From Quercus robur (lineage: Eukaryota; Streptophyta; Magnoliopsida; Fagales; Fagaceae), in contig NC_065541.1 in assembly GCF_932294415.1 (NCBI RefSeq), positions 48,834,290 through 48,898,289 of the forward strand: a stretch of 64,000 nucleotides of DNA. Reading direction: 5' to 3'. Made by a program: the position numbers and the translations under genes. A model generated the notes under the pieces. That model was not told the DNA's origin. It did no database searches and saw nothing but the letters and a program-made list of their open reading frames with translations. Positions 19,148 through 64,000 of this stretch are shown here, in pieces (positions within the stretch are counted from its first letter, which is position 1; each line of letters opens with the position of its first letter).

Positions 19148-20430
19148 GTGCAACACTTAACTATGGTAGGATCAGGTCCACACCGTGCAGAGTCTTTGGG
19201 ATCCCAACTTGGCGATCCATTTATCAATCTTAAGCAGAGAGGTGACCGTGAGAGAAGTGTGCATACCGTACATACTGATAGGAGTCAACCTCGAGGTGGA
19301 ACCCATATCTCCCAAGCAAAGAGTAACAAGGACCTGCAACTGGAGATTGACCAGTTAAAGAGAAAGTTGCGCCATGCACGGCGAGACCGAGTCCCTTCCA
19401 ACTCTGACATTTCCTCTGAGGAAGAAGAGGATGTTAGTTATAGGTGAAGGTCAAGAACTCCACCTAGCGAATCTTTTCCCTACGAAGTAGAACATCATCA
19501 TGAACGTAGACACAAGATCCCGCCACGCAGAGGCTTGGGAAATGATGCTATGAGCAGGACGTTGAACTAAATTTCCAGATCGCCCTTCACGCGCAACATT
19601 GAGGGGGCAATACTCTCTCGGCAGTTCCACCAGCCAACATTCACCATCTACAACGATCAAACGAATCCTGTGGAGCATGTGAGCCATTTCAACCAAAGAA
19701 TGGTCGTCCATTCCAAGAACGAAGCCTCGATGTGTAAGGTGTTTCCATCCAGTCTAGGACCAATGGTGATAAGATGGTTTGATGGCCTGGGGGCAGATTC
19801 CATAAGTTCCTTTAAGGAGCTCACCCAAGCATTCGGCTCTCATTTTATTATGTGCAGCGGGGTTTCTCGACCCTTAGACTCTCTATTGTCCATGTCCATG
19901 AGGGAGGGGGAAACCGTGAAAGCATACTCAAACAGATACTAGGAGATGTTTAACGAGATAGATGGTGACTTTGACGATGTGGTCATTAGTACTTTTAAAG
20001 TCAGCCTCCTAGCCGAGCATGGTTTAAGGAAATCCCTGGCTGGCAAACCTGTCACCAATGTGTGCTAACTCATGGATCGGATTGATAAGTATAAAAGGGT
20101 TGAGGAAGACCAGCAGCAAGGGAAAGGAAAGACTAAGGTTATCCTTTAGGAAAGGAGGGATTTCAAGTCGGACCGATACAATAACAACCAGCCGCGGAGA
20201 GATTTTGCTGGGCAGTCAGGGTCTGCTAATGCTCAAGTGGTTAATGCTGTGTTCCGAGAACCGATGCATCAGGTTCTTAAAAAGATTAAGAATGAGTCAT
20301 TCTTCAGATGGCCAAATAAGATGGCAAGAAACCCCATAAGGCGCAATCAGAGCCTTTATTGCCACCACCACTAGGATCAATGACACACCACCGAGGACTG
20401 TAAGAGTTTGTGGGATCATTTGGACCAGCT
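19148..20430 (+). pseudogene. gag remains
   Basis: Broken capsid-polyprotein region. A recognisable Tat-type gag core lies around 19640-20050 (for example VEHVSHFNQRM and MVIRWFDGLGADSISSFKEL), preceded by a charged N-terminal part. It is decayed and not expressible as one product. Confidence 0.8.
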
Positions 20431-23400
20431 GGTCCGAGAGGGAAAACTCAAGCAATCTTGCATCATTCTAGTTACCAAGGGGGCCAGATAAATTCAGAAC
20501 CCCGGAGAGATGATTCCTCAAGACCTCCCTTGGGAACGATAAATGCCATCTTCGCTGCTCCAAGGAGAACTGGCTCTTATCCCTCCAAAGTGATGTCTAT
20601 TACTCGGCTACCTGCCGAGGATGCTAATTTGGAGCCAAAGAGGGATAGAACAAAAATCCAATCGGTTCTGGGCTTCTCGGACCATGATAAGATCGGAATC
20701 ATCCAACCCCACGATGATGCTTTGGTGGTCACATTCAGGATTGGGGGCTACGATGTGAGGAGGGTGTTGATAGACCAGGACAGTGGTGCTGAGATTATGT
20801 ACTTCGACCTTTATAAAGGGCTAAATTTGAGACCCGAGGACCTAACATTCTATGATTCCCCTCTGGTGAGTTTCGATGGAAAGGCTGTCATTCCTAGGGG
20901 TATGATAAGACTACCTGTGCAAGCTGGTTCAGAAATAGTGGAGGTAAATTTCATCGTAGTGGATGCGTCTTCCCCCTATACGGTCATTGTAGCTAGACCC
21001 TAGCTTCATGCCTTGGAGGCCGTCTCTTCCACTCTGCACCAGAATATGAAATTTTCGTCGGGGGACCACATTGAAGAAATCATGGGGAGTCAATCCACAG
21101 CCAGGCAATGCCTAGTGGCTACCATCTTACATCAACCTAAAGCTGAGTCCTCAGCCTCTGCTGGAGGGGGCTTATAGTAATCAAAGGCTCTGTCATCGCC
21201 TATAAATGGACCAGCTGAGGAGGCAAAGTGTGAAGATTTGGAAATGGTTATGGTTGGTGATGACCCGGAGAAGTTATTTCTGATTGGAACTCAATTACCT
21301 CCCCAGGAAAAGGGAGAGCTAGTAGAATTTCTTAGGAAAAATGTTGACGTGTTTGCATGGAATGCTTACGAAGCACCGGGGGTGGACCTGAGCTTCATCT
21401 GCCATCATTTAAATGTTAACCCATCCATCACCCCCCAAAAAGAAATCACCTCAATGCCCATCTAAGGAACATGCAGATGCTATCAGAGATGAAGTGATGA
21501 AGCTCAAACAGGCATGGGCTATCACGGAAGTTTTCTACTCGGCATGGCTGGTCAATACTGTCGTAGTGAAAAAGAAGAACGGGAAGTAGTGAGTGTGTAT
21601 AGACTTCACAGATCTGAATAAGGCTTGCCCAAAAGATCCCTTCCTTATGCCTCGAATAGATCAGTTGGTGGATGCAACGGTGGGACACCCTCGGATGAGC
21701 TTATTAAACGCTTTTCAAGGATACCATCAAATACCACTAGCCCTAGACGATCAGGAAAGGACAACTTTTGTCACTCCCATTGGAAACTACCACTACAAAG
21801 TGATGCCCTTCGGTTTGAAGAATGCAGGGTCTACCTATCAAATGATGATGACGAGAATGTTTGAACCGCAGTTAGACAAGAGAATTGAGATATATATAGA
21901 TGATATGGTGGTGAAGAGTAAGGTGGTGTCTGAGCATATGGAAGACCTCGGAAACATCTTTGAAATCCTAAGAAAACACAAGTTGCGCCTAAACGCTTCC
22001 AAGTGCTCATTTGGTGCGGGATCAGGCAAATTCTTGGGCTACATGGTAATTCACAAGGGAATTGAGGTCAATCCCAATCAAATCAAAGCCATTAACAGTT
22101 TACAACCACCTCAGAATCCCAAAGAGGTCTAGAAGCTTAGCGAAATGACTGTTGCCTTGAACCGATTTATTTCACGAAAGGGATTTGAGTGGACTGAGGA
22201 GTGTGCTTTGGCCCAGCGGATAGGTGCAGACACTTCTTCCTCTTGATGAATAAATGGAAGAGATTTGAATGGACCGAGAAGTGTGCTTTGGCTTTCCAGC
22301 AACTTAAGGAATATATATCTCGACCACCTATCATGTCCAGTCCTGAGGTAGATGAGGTCATGTTTGCCTATATCGTTGTAGCCCCTCATGCTGTAAGTTT
22401 GGTATTGATACGATTTGACAGTGGCATACAACAGTCAGTTAACTGTGTGAGCAAGTCACTACATGAGGCCAAGATTCGTTATCTACTATTGGAGAAAGCC
22501 ATCTTGGCGGTGGTGCATGGTACACGAAAACTTCCCCATTACTTCTAAGCACACACAGTTGTTGTCCTAACTCAACTTCCACTCAAAACTATTCTTCGAA
22601 GTGCTGATTACACGAGGAGGATTGCTAAATGGGGCAAAATTCTAGGGGCTTTTGACATCAAGTACATGCCTCGTACCTCTGTCAAGGGCTAGGTCTTCAT
22701 GGACCTAGTGGCCAAGTTCACTGAACCCCCATTAAAAGAAGTGGTAGCGACACAGAACATGGATGGAAAATCGGTTGGCACAATCTCCCTGCAAGAACCT
22801 TTATTCTAGAAGGTATACGTTGATGGTACAGCAAATCAAAGGGGTTCTAGAGTGGGGCTAGTTCTAGTTTCTCCTGAACAAATCACCATTGAAAATTCAC
22901 TAAGACTGGCTTCTCGGTTACAAATAATAAGGCTGAATATGAAGCTCTACTGGAAGGAATGTTCGTGGTTCAGAGAATGAGGGGCAAGACAGTGAAGATA
23001 TTCTCGGACTCAAGACTGGTTGTTAGCCAAGTGAAGAGCGAGTTAGAAGTAAGAGATGAGAGAATGCAAGGGTACTTAAGTCAAGTTAGGCATTTGCAAT
23101 CAAATTTTGAATCATTCAGCCTACTGCACATCCCTAGAAGTGGAAACACACTTGCTAATTCCCTAGCCACGCTTACAACCTCCTCGGCACAAAGTTTACC
23201 TTGGGTTATTCTTATAGAGGACTTGTGCAAACCCACGAAGGTAAGGGGAAAGGCTGTCCATGTTCACTAAGTTAGAGTAGGGCCTAGCTGGATGGATCCC
23301 ATAATACTATTCTTGAGAGAGGACATCTTGTCGGAAGATAAATTGGAAGCTGACAAAGTACGGAAAAAGGCACCTCGTTTTTTGCTATCGGAGGACCGAA

Positions 23401-24521
23401 AATTGTACAAACGCTCCTTTTCTGGGTCATATCTACTCTGCATACACCCTGAGGTATTAGAATTACTCCTTGAGGAGTTGCATGAAAGGATTTGTATAAG
23501 TCACACGTGAGGCAAATCTTTATCTCACAGAGCCATCACACAGGACTATTGGTGGCTAAATATGCAGAAGGAAGCACTTGTGAAGAAATGTGATTAGTGC
23601 CAAAAATTCGCACCAAACATTCACCAACTAGGAGGAGTCCTTAACCCCTTGTCCAGCCCGTGGCCATTTGCTCAGTGGGGTTTAGAAATCGTTGGCCCTT
23701 TCCCTAAGGCAGTAGGAAATAAGAAATATTTGCTGGTCGGTACGGACTACTTCACCAAGTGGGTTGAAGCTAAGCCTTTAGCAAATATAAGGGATGCGGA
23801 TGCCAAGAAATTTGTTTGGAAAAACATCGTCACACAATTCGGAGTTCCACGTACCCTCATCTCTGACAATGGCCTTCAATTTGATAGCAAATCTTTCAGG
23901 AGATACTGTCATGATCTTGGGATTACGAACAGGTACTCCACCTAAGTTTATCCCCAAGGAAATGGATAAGCCGAGACTGCAAACAAAGTCATAGTAAATG
24001 GACTCAAGAAGGGGCTGGATGACGCGAAGGGAAAATGGGTAGAAGAGATATCACATGTCCTCTGGACGTATAGAACTACTCCTCGCAGGTCAACAGGAGA
24101 GACCCCCTTTTCAATGACTTATGGAGTCGAGACTGTCATCCCTTTAGAAACTGGCTTCCCAACATTAAGGACCAACTTATTCAATCCGAGCAGTAACAAT
24201 GAGTTGCTAGAAAAGAGCTTAGACCTTATTGAAGAAAGAAGAGAAAGTGCAATGGTTCAATTGGCATACTTCCAACACAAGCTCAAGTAAGGTTATGATG
24301 CCAATGTAAAGCTGAGGCCATTAGTGCCTGGTGACTTGGTATTGAGGAAAGTTCTAGGTACTGTAAAGAATCCAGCGTGGGGAAAGCTAGGGCCCAATTG
24401 GAAAGGACCATATCGCATCACTTCGGTGGCTGGTATAGGAGCATATTTTTTGGAAGACTTAGATGAGCATGTAATACCGTGCCCTTGGAATGTAAATAAC
24501 CTGAAAATGTATTATTATTAA
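20431..24521 (+). pseudogene. pol remains (protease, RT, RNase H, integrase)
   Basis: Order of parts: aspartic protease region about 20640-21000 (DSGAEIMYFDLY); reverse transcriptase about 21240-22130 with the YIDDMVV signature; RNase H regions about 22300-23270; integrase about 23290-24300, with the zinc-binding part first and the core DYFTKWVEAKPL near 23750. The order places it in Ty3/gypsy. Several breaks are spread over the region, so it is a fossil. Confidence 0.88.
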
Positions 24522-24589: not shown

Positions 24590-25110
24590 TCCAAGTATTA
24601 AACAAAACCTTAATCATGCTTGGCTCCTCAAACCACATGCTTTGGCCAAATTAATACTTGTTAACATCTTTATAAGTGATTAAACAGAACCTTAGCCATG
24701 CCTGGCTCCTCGGACCAGATGTTTTGGGGAAATTAACACTTAATGACATCTTATATAAGTGATTAAACAGAACCTTAGCCATGCCTGGCTCCTCGAACCA
24801 GATGCTTTGGAAAATTAATACTTAATGACATCTTATATAAGTGATTAAACAAAACCTTAGTCATGTCTAGCTCTTCGGACCAGATGTTTTGGGGAAATTA
24901 ACACTCTATGACATCTTTATATAAGTGTTAAATAGAACCAATATTATATCAGGCTCCTCGTATCACATACTTTGGTAAAATTAATACTCTGTGATATCTA
25001 TTTATTTCTCACTAACTGTCAAGACGAACCCAATATTATAACCAACTCCTTAGATTGGTAGCTTTGAGTAAGTTAATGTTCTTAATTATTTATCTAAGTG
25101 TTAAGCAGAG
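24590..25110. repeat. Tandem repeat, about 82-bp period, about six copies, in the post-pol region
   Basis: Units begin ATTAAACAGAACCTTAGCCA and carry GGCTCCTCGGACCAGATG; starts fall at about 24597, 24679, 24762, 24844 and 24927, then decay. It lies between pol and the antisense frame, where Tat-lineage elements often hold tandem repeats. Confidence 0.85.
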
Positions 25111-34149: not shown

Positions 34150-34655
34150 TTTATTTATTTATTTATTTAAGTAGTTGGTTTCCCTATGGGCTTGAGTCCG
34201 AGGACCAAACAAGGCCTTGGTTCTGTCCAAAACTTGTATTTCTTCTTTTAAGTAGTTGGTTTCCCCATAGGCTTGAGTCCGAGGACCATACAAGGCCTTG
34301 GTTCTGTCCAAAACTTGTATTTTTTCTTTTAAGTAGTTGGTTTCCCCATAGGCTTGAGTCCAAGGACCATACAAGGTCTTGGTTCTGTCCAAAACTTGTA
34401 TTTTTTCTTTTAAGTAGTTGGTTTCCCCATAAGCTTGAGTCCGAGGACCATACAAGGCCTTGGTTCTATCCAAAACTTGTATTTTTTCTTTTAAGTAGTT
34501 GGTTTCCCCATAGGCTTGAGTCCGAGGACCATACAAGACCTTGGTTCTGTCCAAAACTTGTATTTTTTCTTTTAAGTAGTTGGTTTCCCTATAGGCTTGA
34601 GTCCGAGGACCATACAAGGCCTTGGTTCTGTCCAAAACTTGTATTTTTTCTTTGT
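34150..34655. repeat. 81-bp tandem array, about six copies
   Basis: Unit starts (GTAGTTGGTTTCCC) fall at 34171, 34252, 34333, 34414, 34495 and 34576, exactly 81 bases apart. Copies differ by only a few bases. Because 81 is a multiple of three, frames on both strands stay open across the array. Each unit carries GAGTCCGAGGACCA and CAAAACTTGTATTTTTTC. The array lies in the leader part of the non-autonomous element, near its primer-binding site. Confidence 0.95.
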
Positions 34656-50918: not shown

Positions 50919-53765
50919 TCAAGTTCTTGACCTTCTAACAGGCGATCGGCTGCAAGTCGAGATTCAAGGAGAAAATTAAAATAATAATAATAATAAAAGG
51001 AAACATAAAACAAGCATGTAAGCTCCAAACACAAGTTTTAATAATGCAAAATTTCACAAAAAGTATGACCAACATGAGGAGACATTGAAAGTATGAATAC
51101 CTTCGGTATCGGCCAAATTCAGGACTCCTGTTCCTACCATAATCAGGACCCCTGTGCCTGTCATATGTTGGCCCATTGTACCTATCATAAACAGGGCTGC
51201 CAGGACGACCATAGTCAGGACTTGGCCGCCTGCGATACACTGGACTTGGTGACCTTCGGTAAGGACTAACCCCACGCCCACCATAACCTCCTCTTTTAGG
51301 GCTATCATAACTCCTGTCACCCCTATCATCATCATCCCTCAAAGCATACTCAACCGAAACCACTCTGTCTAATAGCTTTCTGCAAAATGACAGCACTTAT
51401 TTAAGTTCATTAGGTCACATTTACAAAGAGAAAGACTGTAATCATGGGAAGGTTAGCCAAGTAATGCAATGGAAACCCCCTTTACCGACCTCATGTGAGT
51501 AGCCTCAAGGGCTCTGGTAGCATCCTCCTGAGTTTCAAACTGGACAAATGCAAAGTTACGTCGAATTCGGACATGAAGAATCCTTCCATATTGTTCAAAG
51601 TGTCTTTCCATATCGCGAACAGTTGTGCGTATTGGATCAAAGTTAATTACGAACAAGGTTTTAGTAGGCCTCTGGTTTGCCCCTGACCTAGATCCATCAC
51701 GAGGCCGACCTCGTTCACCCTAAAAAAATTAACTCATCATGATCAGGAAGAAAGGATACTGATTCTCAAAAAAATAAAATAAAATAATGGAAGGATATAG
51801 TTTCTTCTTTCTTTTCTTTTTTTTGGAAAAAGTGGATATTGATTCCTTTTTAAAAGGGTTAAAACAGGAATGCTGGCAACTTTAAGAGCATGATGATATA
51901 TAAGTGAGCAAAAAATGGGTACTTTATGTGTAGAAAAATATTGTACCCTTGCCCACTCCACTGACAGCCTACGCCTGTCATAACCAAACGGCCTATTATC
52001 AACGGCACGAATAGCTTCTTCAGCATCACGCTCATCCACAAAATAAACGAAAGCAAAGCCTGCAGTAAGAAAACAAAAGAAAAATCAACAATAGAACTGA
52101 AGGACAGCAATGACAAATCATCCACTCAGCTCATAGCACATTAGTTTCAGGTTTTCTTTATCCCTGGCAAAAACAAAAAATACAACACCTGCATATAAGT
52201 GAGGGGCTGATGAACATAAGGCCGTAGAGGTGTTGCATGATGAACTAATGATTGTTGCATGTAAAAAGTTCTAATCCAAAATTTCAGGTCTGAGATGTCA
52301 CTGCGCATGCTTCGCCATTCAGAAAGCACGAATTCAGTAATGGAAGGCATAGCATGACAGAATTCATTCATCCCACTACATTCAGTTGTTGGCATGGCAT
52401 GCAGATATCATTGATCCCCTATGATCATTGTTGGTAGGCAAGGCATAATAAATTGACTGATTCCACTATGTAAATTCTTGTGAAATGGCATGCGATGAAG
52501 TGGGTGAGTCATGAGTGAAGGATTGATCGGAGTGTAGAAAGTGCAGGATGATGCTATCAGTGGGGTGGAAGGAGATCAGGCAAGCAAGATGGTTTCCTTT
52601 CCAAAATAAGTATTTTGCACAGATGTTGGCGAGCCCAGATAGAAGCTCAGCTCATTTTCCATTAGCAGAAGTTCCTGCGTCAAAAGAAACACTTAAATAT
52701 GGAGATTTTCTCCAAAGAAATTGCAAATTTGTGGTCCCCATTCATTTCCATCAGGAAACAGTCATTGGATATGTACACTACACAAGTGGCCATACATCCA
52801 TATCCAATGAATTGATGTTTGTACAAAACTTTTGTTAATAAAAGACCGCCGTGATGGATATCCTTGAGCCCAGTAATCAAGGGAGCAGCCACAGCCTAAA
52901 AAAATCACCTAGAGGCTACCAAAAAAACCCACACAACCCATACCACTCCGCTTTAAAACAGAACATTCAGATAATTGAGGACAGAAACAGGAAGAAGGAA
53001 CCAGGTAGAGAGTGCCCAAATATATAAGGTGAAAAAAGAGAGAGAGAGAGAGAGAGAGAGAAAGCGGGTTCCGAAGTTTAGACTCAATTACAAAAGAGAG
53101 CACCAAAATTAATTATAATGGTAGTAGCCAATGAGCTGTAGCTAAATTCGCACTTCCTCCCCTCATAAGTTCTAGATATAGGGTGATTCCATGGGTTCAA
53201 AACCGATTGGGTGTGTGTATAACTTACCAATTAGTAAAATTACTTAAAATGGTAATAGTAATAGATGTAGGGACTTCATTGGAGATAACTTCCACAATAT
53301 TAAAAAAATTTAAAAAAAAAAAAAAACCACGCCGATATGAAAGATAACCTCAATCTCACACACTTCAACATGTGGATAACCTCCACAAACGCATGCCACA
53401 ACGTAGAAGCAAGTCTGTTAATGACTCCTACTACGCCACATTACATAAAAGAACAATAAGAAATTAACACAACATGCACTATTTATCTGTACAATTCGAT
53501 AGCTACAACAATGGGCAATCAGCAAAACATTCTAATAAAATAGCTACTACTTCGACATGGGTAGCAAAGATATATAATATATATATAGCTGCAATTATTA
53601 AAAACCACAAGTACCAAACAGTTATGACAAGTTCAACATCAATATCAAAGTTCGCTAACCAGATTTCATGTCGACGCGCTCAATCTTCCCGTACTTTCCG
53701 AACAAGCGTTCCAGTTCAGATTGGCGAGTATCGTACTCAAAGTTTCCCACGAAAATCGGCCTCAT
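50919..53765 (-). CDS. RS31: Arginine/serine-rich splicing factor RS31
   Basis: Five coding exons on the minus strand: 53765-53660, 52059-51947, 51719-51490, 51379-51101, 50949-50919 (stop TGA). They join in frame to 252 residues, close to Arabidopsis RS31 at 264. RRM1 is [20 protein letters not shown] to about [10 protein letters not shown], with RNP1-like GFAFVYF. RRM2 follows the linker [15 protein letters not shown], with NFAFVQF. The tail is RS/SP-rich with repeats such as [17 protein letters not shown] and ends [10 protein letters not shown]. It is a plant-specific SR protein acting in the nucleus in splice-site choice. Intron 1 (52060-53659) is 1.6 kb; long introns here carry alternatively spliced exons in the family. 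The donor after exon 3 (ATGAG then GTCGGT) is the weakest joint; a stronger-looking GTAAAG lies four bases on but breaks the frame. Confidence 0.94.
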
Positions 53766-54160
53766 CGTCGCAACTACCCAAAAAAAAAACCCTAATCCTT
53801 TGTTTGTTTCCTGAGAAAACACAAAAAAAAAAAACAAGAAACTGGCTTATTCGGTAAGTCAAGCAAAAACCATTTAATTAATTGAAACAAAATCAACGGC
53901 AAGTACAAAAGGAATCTTGTCTTTTTTCCGAGAAACCAAACACAGAAAAAGAAAGTAAATAAAAACAAATACAGTGATTTGAAAAAGCAAGAAAGATTAA
54001 CAAATTGTTAAGAGAGAGACTAGATGAAACTACCTTAAGCTTAAAGCCACCGAATCCGATTCGTCTCAGAGCGAGAGCAAAAAGCAAACCCTAAGAAAGA
54101 GAAAAGTGACTGCGTTTCGTAGAGAGTGGTACGGTGCGTTTGTTTATATATATAGCCCAA
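53766..54160 (-). promoter_or_regulatory. RS31 leader, leader intron and TATA box
   Basis: On the minus strand, TATATATATA at 54154-54145 precedes a leader with CTTTCTTAGGGTTTGC. A possible donor (CTTAAG then GTAGTT) near 54034 and acceptor (TTTTCTCAG) near 53814 suggest an intron of about 220 bases in the leader, a common feature of plant SR genes. The splice positions are inferred. Confidence 0.6.
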
Positions 54161-54279
54161 AATTTATTCAGAAGTTATTCGCGGCCGTCCGATTTTGAGA
54201 TTTTGGTCAGCGAATCGGATGGTGGGTTCATTGTGAAGTAGTCAGTGATTGACTTAGAGTCTTCCACTAATTGTATTAA

Positions 54280-54495
54280 AGAATAATTACAACAAACCCA
54301 TCTGAGGTTTGGCCCGTTTACACTTTACCTATCCGTGGTTTAAAACTTATCACTTTGCCCACCTGAGGTGCCTTCTGTTAGAGATCTGTTACCCACCTCT
54401 CCCTTTGTCGTTAGAAAAACACATTTTTAGAGAAAAACAAACATAACAAAGATAAAAAAGTTATGGTTTTTTTTTTGCTTAAGAACTTCTTTTAG
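54280..54495. repeat. Left terminal inverted repeat of the Pack-MULE
   Basis: Inverse match to 55729-55936, including TTGCCCACCTGAGGTGCCTT and GAGATCTGTTACCCACCTCT; only a scattering of differences. Confidence 0.9.
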
Positions 54496-54855
54496 AACAA
54501 AACACAAACCAACAGTATTGCTATTCTCTTGTCCATTGGTTATTCAAACATGTATTCAATCCTTCACCCTTGCATGGAGCTTTGCACCCACCTTTCCTCC
54601 CGTAATTTCCACACTACCCTCGTCATTCCCTCCATCTCCGGCACCACCACCACTCATATTTCCTCTTCCTTCTCTCAAAACCCACTCATCTCGAGTCCTC
54701 CTATGCGCCCTAGATCTAATCCGACCCGCCAGCAATCTACCCTCGAACTCCAAGCCTATATCACCACCAACCGCTCTCAATCCCAACCTCCCATCATCTG
54801 CACCATCGTCAACTTCCAGATCGGGTGGACCAAAGAGGTCTTACAAAAATTAAAC

Positions 54856-55411
54856 TCAGCAAAAAGTAACTGAGTTGCTCCCAGCAACACTAGCGTTATT
54901 AGCCGCAGACGGAATCTCAAAATGCTAGAGCCTCCCGACAGCCTTAACCAAGTACTTCCTACAAAGAAACTCTTCAGCAAAAGCCTTCTCTACTCTCCGA
55001 TCAACATCGTGCAGGAACACGTGCGTCACACCGGATCCCTTCCTGTTCCTCACCATGACCGCCGCCGAGAAAATCGCACCCATCCTACCTGGCGCTTCGG
55101 CGAAGTACCCTCTCGGCGCGTTGATCATTATCAAATCCCACTCCGTCTCATACACCTCGTCGGGAAGATTCTCGAGCGCCAAACGACACCGCGTGTTGCC
55201 ACGTAGGTACGCATTGGACGGCGAGCAAAGGCATTCGGAGCGGTACGAGGAGAGGAGATGGTCGGCCTGGGAGAGCTGGGTTCGGTACTTGACCGTGTGG
55301 GCCTTCAGGTACAGCGAGTCCTTGAGAACCGTCTGGAACCACTTCGGATCTTCCTCGAGGAACACCGTTTTGCCACGTGGGTTCAGCGAGGTGCACCGTG
55401 TTGGCTGGGTG
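54856..55411 (-). pseudogene. Captured DUF579 (GXM-like) methyltransferase copy
   Basis: Minus-strand reading of about 185 codons, starting without an ATG at about 55411 (TSLNPRGKTVFLEEDPKW), through LPDEVYETEWDLIMINAPRG, FAEAPGRMGAIFSAAVMVRN and THVFLHDVDRRVEK to a stop TGA at 54858-54856. DUF579 enzymes are Golgi methyltransferases of plant cell-wall polysaccharides (GXM enzymes 4-O-methylate glucuronic acid in xylan) or related proteins. The N-terminal anchor and the first part of the catalytic domain, including the usual NFLVFG region, are absent. A TAG at 54927-54925 replaces a tryptophan codon expected in GRLWHFEIP. So it is a partial, broken copy. The frame is otherwise clean, which suggests recent capture. 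Confidence 0.85.
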
Positions 55412-55728
55412 AAGCTCTTTCTTACCCGTTGCTTTTGAGCAATGTGACTGGGATGATGGTATCACTCGTCGCCTTGGCATCTGGGCTCATGGTGATCGAT
55501 CATTCTGATCGTAAAATCACGTGGGCTTTGATGTTCAACTTCTTTTCTTTTATTACTCTCCTAAGACTCCGACTCCAAGAACTCTCTTTATCTCTCTCTT
55601 TTGTCATAACAAATGATAGATTTAGAGTTTAGAGATTACAACACTCACAGATCTCTCTCTCCTTTTCTTCTTCCTTTGATTTGATTCATAAGAAAGAGAG
55701 AGAGTTTGAGTTATGCAGTTTTAAGGCG

Positions 55729-55936
55729 AAGTTTTTAAGCAATAAAAAACCCTAACTTTTTGATCTTTGTTATGTTTGTTTTTCTCTAAAAATGTGTTTT
55801 TCTAATAGCAAAGGGAGAGGTGGGTAACAGATCTCTAACGGAAGGCACCTCAGGTGGGCAAAGTGATAAGTTTTAAATCACGAGTAGGTAAAGTGTAAAC
55901 GGGCCAAACCTCAGGTGGGTTTGCTGTAATTATCCC
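55729..55936. repeat. Right terminal inverted repeat of the Pack-MULE
   Basis: Ends TTTGCTGTAATTATCCC, followed by the right target site TTGTATTAA. Inverse match to the left repeat over about 208 bases. Confidence 0.9.
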
Positions 55937-55945
55937 TTGTATTAA

Positions 55946-56290
55946 ACTTTTAAATTGCAAATTATACCTTAAAGTTTGGGAATATTTGAATTTTACAGCT
56001 GAAATTTTAGAATTTTGATTTTCTCCTCTAAAGTTTGGGGTGATTGAATTTTACACTCTAACATTTTAAAATTTAGATTTTATCCCTTAAATTTTAAGAA
56101 TGTTTGGACTTTACTCTTAAAAGTTTGAGGGTTTAAAATCCTTCCAAATTTTAGCGAGTAAAATATAAATTTTAAAATATCAAGGTGTAAAATTTAAACA
56201 CCTTAAACTCCTAGAGTAAATTTTAAATTTTGAAATTTTGTAGTGTAAAATTTAAGCTCTCTCAAATTTAAGAGTGTAACAATTTACCTA
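55946..56290. repeat. AT-rich degenerate repeat, about 50-bp spacing
   Basis: Repeated, diverged phrases such as TTAAAGTTTGGG...TTTGAATTTTACA and, in inverse toward the right, GTGTAAAATTTAAAC. Suggests an old foldback element. Non-coding. Confidence 0.5.
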
Positions 56291-57917
56291 AACTTTTATA
56301 ATAAAGAGTGGCCTGGAATTAAATTCATGCCCAAAACCGAAAGGCCCAAGCTAAACTCTTTCCTATTTGTGATCTGGGCTTAAATCTAGCGAGGGCCCCC
56401 ATTTTATTTTTTGTGGAAGGTTCTACCTTTTAGTAAAGCTGAGTTGCTGTACCTTTCTAAAGAGTTGAAGAAATCGTACTTTTTTATTTGTTCTCATTTG
56501 AAGCAACATAATTTAGTTGATGGGCAATACTTTAGGTGTTGTGCTTTAAGTTTTTCTCTTCAAATTCAGTCATGTGGCTATTTAATTAAAAAATACACTT
56601 TTAACCTATGAGAAAAAATTCACATGGTAGAATTTTAAGAATGAAATCTAAAAAATAGAACCTAATTACTGTACCTAAGTCTTACTCATAATTGATAATA
56701 ACTTATTAGCTTTCATTGATATGATAGCAAAGAAAGATTTTTTTGAACTCTTTATTAGGGAGAAAATGAATCCAAGTTTGCTGGATGGGTGAAAAAGTGT
56801 CTTGGGTTAAAGCAATTGCCCAACCAATCACAAAAACAAAAACAAGGTAAAAGCCATAGATTTAGATATAGATTTACAAGTGATAGTCTGTATGCTTGGT
56901 TGGTAAGACATCATTGTTTCTTCCTATTGCATTTAAATGTGTGTTGGAATAATGATCTGACAGTTAACCGTGCATGCAGATGCAGTGTATTACTGTCCAA
57001 AAAAAATTTGGGCCAAAGCCAAAGTCATTATTCTAAAAAGAATAAAATACTATCTAGTCATGCCAAAAAGAAGGGAAAGGGTTAATAGTTGTCCAAAAAC
57101 CCTTATAAATTGACACTTACTAATTTTAAACATAACATGGAATTATAAAACAATAAAAGTCACAAATAACATTGAATCAAAAAAGTTCATAGTAAGTTTC
57201 TTAACTCCCCCCAAAAGTTACCAGAGGGAGGCTTCCTAGAATCCAACTCAGTTTCTCAAGCCAAGAAGCCCATCAGAAGTAGTCAAGGGGGCATATCTCA
57301 AAGGAGGAGCATCCATCCACTAAAGTTGGAGTTGGAGTACGAATGTAGCAACTCTTTTCTAGAGTCACTTGTATGAAACCGGCTTGAGTACTGTGCACGA
57401 GAGTATTGGACCTATTGAGATGCTGACATATGTCAGATATTTGCCACATGTCAACATCCCAACAGGTCCAATCCTTACCCCACCCTTATAAGGATAAGCT
57501 TTATGATTGTTAGAATTTTGGACTTGACTCAATTGAGGCTCTCCTCAAATCCATACACATTGACATGATATGGGCATGACAAAGTTTGAATAATAGTCTC
57601 AAATAATTGATCACATCATCCTTATGTTCTTAAGTGGTTGGTTGCTTGTAAGACTTTTTAATTTGCAGTTTTGCACTATTTCTTAGGTTAATTTAATTTA
57701 ATCCATACATATATATTTAATTTAACCCTATAAAATGGTATTAGAGATTTAGAATTCCCTCTATCCAAGCATTAACTTCTATAGAAAGACCCTTATAGTT
57801 CTCACTTTTTACCTTTAATAGTTTCTAAATTATATTTTTATCACCTTTATTTATTTGTAAATAACTTTTTTTTATATTTCCCTAATATATTTTAAATAAA
57901 ATATGAATATTTATGTT
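56291..57917. other. Spacer with scattered remnants
   Basis: No gene supported. An open stretch at 56789-57085 has no recognisable family. A 68-bp hairpin at 57405-57472 is listed separately. Confidence 0.45.
57405..57472. repeat. Short hairpin-forming inverted repeat
   Basis: ATTGGACCTATTGAGATGCT at the left is matched in inverse by ACATCCCAACAGGTCCAAT at the right, with further pairing of GACATATG and CACATGTC. The arms are about 30 bases, the loop short. Confidence 0.75.
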
Positions 57918-61309: not shown

Positions 61310-61545
61310 GTTGGTGCTATCTATGAAGAAAGATTTTTTTTTTGCAATTGATCTTTCTTCAACAAAAAGATTGCATGGTTCGGACAAGATCAAGGGCCAC
61401 CAACCCAGGCCATCAAGAAAGTAGGGATGCCTCTAGTAATCCCCACCATGGTTGCCAGTCAGCGCCTGTCATGCAACTGCCATCCGTTCAACACATATAG
61501 TCCATGGCAGCCGCCATGGCATAGTTAACTCATTAGAACCAAGAG

Positions 61546-62400
61546 TTGACCAGAGAGATTGGCTTAAGAAGACAACATCGTGAAAGATATGCAGAGGGGC
61601 AAGCCCAAAGTCAAGAAGATAGAGGAGGAAACGCTGAGCCCAAGAGCCAATCAAAGGGCACCATTTCGCGAAGGGTGCCACACTTGGAGAAGGAGATGGA
61701 TCAGATGAGGAAGGTCATGGACGAGATGAGGGAGAACATGAGAAGGGCGAATCCCATAAAGGATTTAGTCCATCGAACAAACTCCCCTTTCACGGCTTCC
61801 ATCAATGGTCACCCCTTACCCCCGAAGTTCAAGATGCCTTCCTTGGATTCGTATGATGAAACGCGTGACCTTTTCGATCATATTGCTACTTTCAAGACTA
61901 CAATGCACCTTCAAGGGGTTCCAGACGAGATTATGTGTAGAGCCTTCCCTACCACCCTCAAAGGACCAGCACAAATGTGGTTCAGCAAGATACCTCTAAA
62001 CACTGTGAGTTCTTTCGAAGAGTTTAGTAAGTTGTTTGTCAATAATTTCATCAGAGGACAAAGGCACAAACGTTCCTCGTCCAGCCTGCTAACCATTGAA
62101 CAAGGAGAGAATGAAAGCTTGCAGTCCTTCATTACTCGTTTCAATAGGGAAGCCCTAATAGTGGACGAAATGGACGACAAGTTGTTATTGGCAGCCTTCC
62201 ATAATGGAGTTAACTTTGACTTGTTCATCCACAAGCTTTACGAACAAGAGCCTCAAACCATGGCTGAACTCATCCATTCAGCCCCAAATTTTATGAATGC
62301 AGAAGACGCGATTATGGCCAAGAAGAGAAAAAGAGCCGAGAGAATGGAAGCAGATCTCTCGCGCCACTCTAAACAAGGTCCTCGTCCAAAGAAGGGGTAG
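61546..62400 (+). pseudogene. gag region of the right-edge Tat element
   Basis: About 284 codons open, with a coiled-coil-like segment (LEKEMDQMRKVMDEMRENM) followed by the gag core (FDHIATFKTTMHLQGVPDEI, GPAQMWFSKIP, ESLQSFITRFNREAL). Belongs to a fossil element; given as a part, not as a host gene. Confidence 0.85.
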
Positions 62401-63361
62401 ACGGGAGAAAAGAAAGACCAAGACAACAAGAAGGCAGGCTCTTCAGCACGAAGTCAACAATATATGCCCTTGAACATGTTGCTGGAATAGGTGTTTATGC
62501 AAATCAAGGATGATTCTTCTTTGAAGTGGCCCGAAAAAAATGAAGGGAAATCCCAACAAGTACAATAGGAATAAGTATTGTTGCTTCCACAGAGACCATG
62601 TGTATGATACAGACGGGTGTTTTGATTTGAAGCAGCAGATAGAAAATCTCATCAAACAAGGGAAGTTGAGAAACTTCCTTGGACGAGATCATAAAGACGA
62701 GAAGTTGAAGGCAAAGTTGAAAGAGCCATCAAGACCTCCACTTGGAGAAATAAGAATCATCATAGGGGGAACCTCAACAGGACAATCTTCCAAGTCAAGG
62801 AAGACATACCTAAAGGTAGTGTAAAACGTCCAACTTTCAAGACGATCCCCGAGGACGAGGACCACGGACGAGCAGGCCATTACATTCACGGACGAAGATG
62901 CTAAAAGGGTTCACCACCCACATGACGACGCGATCGTTATTACTTTGCTTATTGCTGACTATACAACCAGAAGAGTGTTAGTGGATAATGGTAGTTCAGC
63001 AGACATCTTTGTACTACCCTACTTTCTAGCAAATGAGGCTTGGACGAGACCAACTTAGTCCAGTGAACTCACCTTTGGTGGGATTTGGAGGTATGAAGGT
63101 ACAACCCGTGGGTACTGTTACGTTGCCTGTGGTGGTAGGAGCATATCCATAACAGATAACCAAGGAAGTAAACTTTCTTATGGTAAGGCAAGCGTAATGA
63201 GATCAGTTAGCAACGAGAGAATGTTACGTATCCATGTTGGCTATGGACGAGCAAGTTCAATCAATGAGTATTGAAGAAAGGAGAATTGTTGCAGAACCCA
63301 CCGAAATGCTGGAGGATATCCCTCTGGACGAGAATGACCTGAGAAGTATACTAGGGTCGGA

Positions 63362-64000
63362 GTGAGCATGGAAGAGAAAACGAAGCAAGACCTTGTCCCG
63401 TTCTTAAAGAAGAGCATTGATGTGTTTGCATGGAGTCATGAGGACATGTCGGGTATAGACCTTAGTGTCATTACCCATCGTCTAAATGTAAATCCTTCCT
63501 CCAAACCCATACGCCAGAAGAAAAGAGTATTTGCTCCTGAGCGAGACAATGCCATTAAAGAAGAGGTTCGAAAATTAACTACAGCAAAGTTTATTCGAGA
63601 AGTTTATTATCCAGACTGGTTGGCCAATGTAGTAATGGTCAAGAAGGCTAATGGTAAATGAAGGATGTGTGTGGACTTCACTGATCTAAACAAGGCCAGC
63701 CCCAATGATAGCTATCCATTGTCGCATGTTGATCAGTTGGTGGACTCGATTGCAGGTCATAGGTTGTTAAGTTTCTTGGAGGCTTTCTCAGGTTACAATC
63801 AGATAAGGATGGACAAGGCAGAAAAAGAAAAGACATCCTTTATCACCAATCAAAGCTTGTTCTATTACTAGGTAATGCCCTTCGGTCTGAAGAACACAGA
63901 GGCAACCTATCAAAAGCTGGTTAACCATATGTTTCGTCTATAGATTGGACGAAATGTGGAAGTCTATGTAGATGAAGAGTTTGGACGAGGGGAAACACTT
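63362..64000 (+). pseudogene. Reverse transcriptase region of the right-edge Tat element
   Basis: Recognisable RT blocks: [20 protein letters not shown], then VDFTDLNKASPNDSYPLSHV and LEAFSGYNQI. The region is broken and continues past the window edge. Confidence 0.85.

Follow-up and report, generated by a model that had tools for sequence, protein, structure and literature searches.

A probable Pack-MULE with pieces of three host genes upstream of a presumed RS31 gene in Quercus robur

A segment lying just upstream of a gene that we presume to be RS31 is very probably a non-autonomous Pack-MULE that carries three captured gene pieces and belongs to a multi-copy family (Table 1). We are sure of the element itself, of its DUF579 donor gene, of its copies and of the mutation spectrum that they display. 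The element is of a known kind, and its history is unusually readable. The window analyzed was a 64,000-nt stretch, C37:48834290-48898289 in the 785.7-Mb assembly of 42 contigs that was used for the genome searches.

The sequence-only reading had assigned the segment to the Pack-MULE class, on terminal inverted repeats (TIRs) of about 210 bp, a perfect 9-bp target duplication, a GC-rich interior and the lack of a transposase. The TIRs proved to be about 205 bp long, and the arms differed at 15 of 204 aligned positions (92.6% identity; 93.2% over 207 in BLAST). Their local alignment score of 343 was far above the maximum of 29 reached in 200 shuffles. The duplication was perfect and lay flush with the element on both sides. 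Whether the duplication and the inverted repeats might fail on alignment was looked at, and both held up. The GC content was 0.44-0.62 in the 100-bp bins over 54580-55479, compared with 0.36 window-wide. No transposase match was found among the nine ORFs and five pieces scanned, ORFs below 50 aa being scanned only in part. With the host-derived interior described below, these features agreed with the class assignment.

Over positions 54000-56700 there was no Rfam match, and the viral contigs searched with the TIR pattern gave no relative. Within the 64-kb window, BLAST with the element as query detected no second copy of the TIRs.

Table 1. Features of the element and its surroundings (contig NC_065541.1 window; positions of the 64,000-nt stretch)
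Feature	Position	Strand	Remarks
Pack-MULE element	54280-55936		1657 bp
Target-site duplication TTGTATTAA	left 54271-54279, right 55937-55945	.	9/9 identical
Left terminal inverted repeat	54280..54489	+	BLAST and alignment
Captured UDP-glycosyltransferase piece (N-terminal domain)	54561..54851	+	18-bp internal gap relative to host C2:60479910-60481388
AATT common to glycosyltransferase side and DUF579 donor	54848..54851	.	4-bp microhomology
Captured DUF579 3' part	54848..55396	-	last 179 codons, with the stop at 54856-54858 and several bases past it
In-frame stop in DUF579 piece	54925..54927	-	absent from the other six copies (copy alignment)
Filler between DUF579 and transporter pieces	55397..55425	.	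29 bp
Captured polyol/sugar transporter (MFS) piece	55426..55530	+	105 bp; genome relatives, L019, C40
TTG at both ends of the deletion	55528..55530	.	about 185 bp deleted relative to L017/L021
Pyrimidine-rich subterminal stretch	55540..55727	.	found in sister copies too (copy comparison)
Right terminal inverted repeat	55728..55936	-	BLAST and alignment
RS31 coding region with introns	50919..53765	-	start and end read by eye
TATA run of RS31 promoter	54145..54154	-	125 bp between TATA run and element

An AT-rich, palindromic, MITE-like stretch (55940-56286; 71% inverted self-match) adjoined the element on its right side. The element inserted at or beside the end of this stretch. Elsewhere in the window, visual inspection of the open frames at 19148-24287 and 61537-63658 suggested gag and pol of gypsy-type retrotransposons. 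Just after the former was a tandem array of about five copies of an 82-bp unit (24593-24988). A further array at 34166-34653 contained six 81-bp units with 96% matches and long open frames on both strands.

A genome search with the left TIR, as the sequence-only reading had proposed, was positive and gave at least 40 matches (40 scored of 1092 first-look candidates). All 20 places fetched had both element ends. At 17 of the 20, the ends abutted a perfect duplication of 9-10 bp, and no two of these 17 were alike; the duplications of L013, L018 and L019 were imperfect or ambiguous. These counts refer to the 20 places of the first round, to which L040, L043 and L044 do not belong. L045 was matched to the element and left out of further comparisons.

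The DUF579 piece occurred in seven copies, at different sites, and these copies clustered together in the tree with weak support (74/83). A full sister copy, L009 (C37:48905413-48907064), lay about 15 kb downstream of the RS31-adjacent copy in the opposite orientation, with its own duplication, TAAATTTTA. Four copies (L010, L012, L016 and L020) had the same front and other interiors. These four and L022-L028 are family members with other interiors, and may hold further captured host genes.

The sequence-only reading had placed about 185 DUF579 codons on the minus strand; the 549-bp match to the donor contained 179. The piece matched the profile PF21729 (IRX15/IRX15L/GXM) with E values of 8.7e-58 (54925-55365, minus strand) and 7.7e-65, as a fragment from profile position 31 on. 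The search for a parental gene, also proposed earlier, found an intact DUF579 gene of 294 aa on C3, with an intronless frame and 97.6% DNA identity over the 549 bp (C3:48587958-48588506). The first 115 of the 294 donor codons were absent from the piece, and there was no in-frame start codon ahead of the frame in the RS31-adjacent copy. The frame was interrupted by stops in two of the seven copies (the RS31-adjacent copy and L014), and was free of stops in the other five.

The genome DNA search with this piece accounted for all ten candidates: the seven element copies, the donor, a second MULE and one paralogue. The six other element copies were 96-97% identical to the RS31-adjacent copy. The paralogue, at C2:67077298, had a 299-aa frame and 72% identity. 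The prokaryote and viral collections contained no relative of the piece. Matches to Fc receptors in the PDB (E about 5e-4) were taken as chance.

The piece was 65% identical to AGM1, 49% to GXM and 39% to IRX15 in comparison stretches that were confirmed only as PF21729 members. By these stretches, the piece may be of the arabinogalactan methyltransferase (AGM) type and less like GXM. The earlier claim of a captured intronless GXM-like gene stood for an intronless DUF579 donor; its GXM likeness is less probable than an AGM likeness. The claim also named a single captured gene; the DUF579 capture was upheld, but pieces of a glycosyltransferase and a transporter gene had been captured too.

The glycosyltransferase piece was read from the plus strand, which matched the glycosyltransferase structure 9bcm in two collinear stretches (E 1.5e-4). 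This match alone was insufficient, because the chance match to Fc receptors was nearly as strong. The homology score was 98, whereas 2000 shuffles reached 52 at most; among 679 ORF peptides from the window, the runner-up scored 38. Pfam and NCBIfam searches of the piece gave no match, and a PDB match to caspase-3 (E about 0.02) was taken as chance.

An intact host glycosyltransferase gene of 492 aa, with an intronless frame, was found on C2. Its identity to the piece was 88.2% over 313 columns including the 18 gap columns, or about 94% ungapped, and the alignment continued with mismatch to 54855. All 17 scored places in the genome search were accounted for as 12 whole-piece matches, three half matches, the host gene and one 38-bp match. 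By position, the 12 whole-piece places were all in the family of the element.

For the transporter piece, the first support came from a comparison with a presumed polyol transporter stretch, which scored 102 against a maximum of 59 in 5000 shuffles and was later superseded by genome evidence. Neither a GLUT3 nor a XylE stretch scored above chance (the score was matched by 166 and 329 of 2000 shuffles, respectively), and PDB and NCBIfam searches of the piece were negative. Querying the genome with the right interior yielded 18 rows for 15 candidates, including two host transporter relatives at C40:44256467 (85%) and C40:44231975 (83%) and a partial match at C35:18265335 (90%). A 501-base host stretch around the first of these (L077) reads through as a sugar transporter, GFTKTMFILVATFFFDKIGRRPLILSSVAGM... 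The interval 55417-55700 had been considered, in minus-strand orientation, as the 5' UTR plus exon 1 of some gene; the plus-strand transporter reading took its place and was confirmed by L019 and L077.

A likely order of the captures is suggested by copies that are filled differently. In L019, a front glycosyltransferase piece (282-722; host coordinates 2836-2378) was followed by a transporter piece (728-1093; 366 bp, 87%) and then by a second glycosyltransferase piece (1108-1226; host 2360-2233), which resumed about 17 bp further on in the host gene. The transporter therefore sits inside the glycosyltransferase, replacing about 17 bp. There was no DUF579 match in L019. In L017 (1843 bp) and L021 (1845 bp), the front piece and the transporter piece were both shorter, and DUF579 lay between them. 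The transporter tail was undeleted in both, and L021 kept the second glycosyltransferase piece. The RS31-adjacent copy, L009, L011, L014 and L040 (1657-1659 bp) had a deletion of about 185 bp in common, the junction of which was present in five of the 24 element sequences examined. About nine bases after the TTG at 55528-55530 were a remnant of the second glycosyltransferase piece.

These structures are consistent with the following history. Part of a glycosyltransferase gene would have been captured first by the element lineage. Part of a polyol transporter gene would then have replaced about 17 bp inside this piece. Next, the 3' part of DUF579 would have displaced the sequence separating the transporter core from the front glycosyltransferase piece. 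The 1.66-kb form would have arisen through loss of about 185 bp bounded on each side by TTG. Each step looks as if a gap had been filled from an ectopic template, with joins at a few matching bases, and the element would be mobilized by a transposase supplied in trans. The copies would then have been DNA-methylated and have decayed by cytosine deamination, and would yield no enzyme.

Serial nested capture is likely, and we lean, with some reserve, toward the exact order of glycosyltransferase, transporter, DUF579 and then deletion. That 3-4 bases match at two junctions is suggestive but no proof, because matches of this length are common by chance. The L019-like copies may instead have lost DUF579 and not represent a pre-capture state, but L019 retains longer glycosyltransferase and transporter ends. 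The divergence order (transporter greater than glycosyltransferase) runs opposite to the structural order. The true donors of these two pieces may be other or lost paralogues, since the best host identities were only about 94% and 85-87%, respectively. L013 contained the front and second glycosyltransferase pieces and had no match to the transporter stretch L077. The middle was different in L013, L015 and L018. These middles, together with the copies with other interiors, indicated that the history of the family was branched and not one straight line.

The second MULE found with the DUF579 piece (L041:1280-2994, in C2:19846000-19850000) was bounded by a perfect TTATATATA duplication. Its TIRs measured about 220 bp; the inverted match, which includes the duplications, covered 232 bp at 91%. 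Its ends were related to those of the RS31-adjacent element's family yet distinct from them (about 72% over 121 bp). The partial DUF579 match at C2:19847958 fell in this region. Against the donor gene, L041 aligned in two stretches, one of 388 columns (89%) and one of 369 columns (78%); the paralogue fitted it less well (74% and 71%). The DUF579 stretches of L041 included sequence upstream of the start codon and lacked the 3' end. Since its boundaries and divergence differ from those of the family, we read L041 as a probable earlier capture, made independently, from this DUF579 gene. We are evenly balanced on a broader proposal: that one MULE lineage may build chimeras by repeated interior replacement, new pieces entering inside or between older ones through 3-4-bp joins, and that certain host genes, here the DUF579 gene, would serve different MULE families repeatedly and independently as donors.

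The copies carried a one-sided mutation spectrum. In the DUF579 piece, 57 positions differed between the donor and the seven copies, and 42 of the 45 single-copy changes were C>T or G>A. These 42 changes fell at 23 of 100 CG sites, 10 of 58 CHG sites and nine of 148 CHH sites, an enrichment over CHH for both CG (p 1.6e-4) and CHG (p 0.029). Over the whole element, 83 of the 95 private substitutions in five full copies were C>T or G>A. Deamination of methylated cytosine in plants yields a spectrum of this kind. This suggests that the element copies have been methylated. Such a spectrum offers evidence of methylation from sequence alone, and bears on the silencing of captured gene pieces.

The divergence of the TIR arms (K2P 0.078) was considered for dating the insertion, and the date was dropped. 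At all 12 inter-arm transitions, one arm of the RS31-adjacent copy had A/T at a position where G/C prevailed among the arms of 14 other copies, and the derived base occurred in at most two of those 28 arms. An ordinary clock rate is inapplicable to the TIRs, because all 12 transitions were derived A/T in the RS31-adjacent copy. Reading the arm differences as old family differences was supported for only one of the 15 (a transversion at column 197), with column 175 mixed. The mutation load was 33 in 2070 sites in the TIRs and 62 in 6210 in the interior (p 0.03); this contrast is too weak to build on, because the DUF579 piece (40 in 2725) was nearly as loaded.

The nominal dN/dS of the DUF579 copies relative to the donor (0.21-0.48) resembles constraint. 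Under a context-weighted C>T model with rates from the same data, 61% of the changes were expected to alter an amino acid, and 26 of 49 did so (p 0.31). We therefore see no apparent selection on the DUF579 piece.

These results bear on two readings in which the DUF579 frame would be a gene in its own right. That an ordinary DUF579 host gene lies between unrelated inverted repeats by chance would account for the long frame and the strong family match. It leaves unexplained the 115 missing codons, the lack of an in-frame start, the in-frame stop, the recurrence of the whole TIR unit at other sites with other duplications and the intact gene on C3. The recurrent copies and the intact donor effectively ruled out a full-length host gene at this site, and we give the chance arrangement practically no credence. 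A functional chimeric gene under selection would agree with the five stop-free copies and the nominal dN/dS below 1, but is very improbable: the N-terminal codons and the start are missing from the RS31-adjacent copy, two copies have stops, and amino-acid changes are about as frequent as neutrality predicts.

Two further proposals concern effects of the element on other genes. We consider the RS31-adjacent copy most likely to be a tolerated passenger. The RS31 start codon was placed by eye at 53765-53763, and one exon ORF matched RRM_1. The sequence-only reading had put the insertion about 125 bp upstream of the TATA box, and this distance was confirmed. According to PMC7337890, Pack-MULEs peak just upstream of transcription start sites, which the RS31 insertion site fits, and a strong effect of such an insertion is little to be expected. 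That the insertion alters RS31 expression, as an enhancer, an insulator or by spreading silent chromatin, is accordingly doubtful in our view. The short distance to the TATA run and the past methylation to which the mutation spectrum points would favor it. In PMC4178011, an upstream MULE accompanied a stronger rice PsbS1 promoter in a transient reporter assay, but methylation of that MULE showed no association with the light response. The RS31 insertion provides a concrete allele for an expression comparison.

It is likewise unlikely that small RNAs from the family, arising through antisense transcripts or TIR hairpins, act in trans on the DUF579 donor. The seven copies and the high donor identity of the RS31-adjacent copy speak for this proposal, plus-strand transcripts would be antisense to DUF579, and the two TIR arms could pair (computed -329.5 kcal/mol). 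In maize, siRNAs from captured sequences are reported in a review (PMC13317346). Against it, the branch of the donor was short (0.0036, compared with 0.0093-0.025 for the copies), and so the donor shows no sign of the mutation load of the copies.

Among the literature matches listed, no description of this element or of any DUF579 Pack-MULE was found, which is weak evidence of absence. The origin of Pack-MULEs is termed perplexing in PMC8277862. Here, the donors or their relatives, differently filled sister copies and the junctions survive in one genome, so that the capture order and the junctions are readable and testable.

The element resembles several known systems. The rice OsPsbS1 MULE also lies close upstream of a host gene, there with a possible 9-bp duplication; its promoter activity was measured, whereas the present element is known from its sequence (PMC4178011). 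The DUF579 clade III contains AGM1 and AGM2 (PMC6508755). The donor found here is a DUF579 member that may be nearer AGM1 than GXM or IRX15, whereas the copy in the element lacks the 5' part and the start codon and is decaying. Pack-MULEs of rice, tomato and Arabidopsis, including tomato PM-ZIBP, likewise have long TIRs, 9-11 bp duplications, captured host gene pieces, several copies and a size of about 1-2 kb (PMC3310237); in the present element, three gene families are represented in two orientations, with living relatives that suggest a capture order. Pack-TYPE elements with DNA from several loci are described in rice and maize (PMC8903248). In contrast to these, the element described here comes from a different genome and has one piece nested in another, with a third between.
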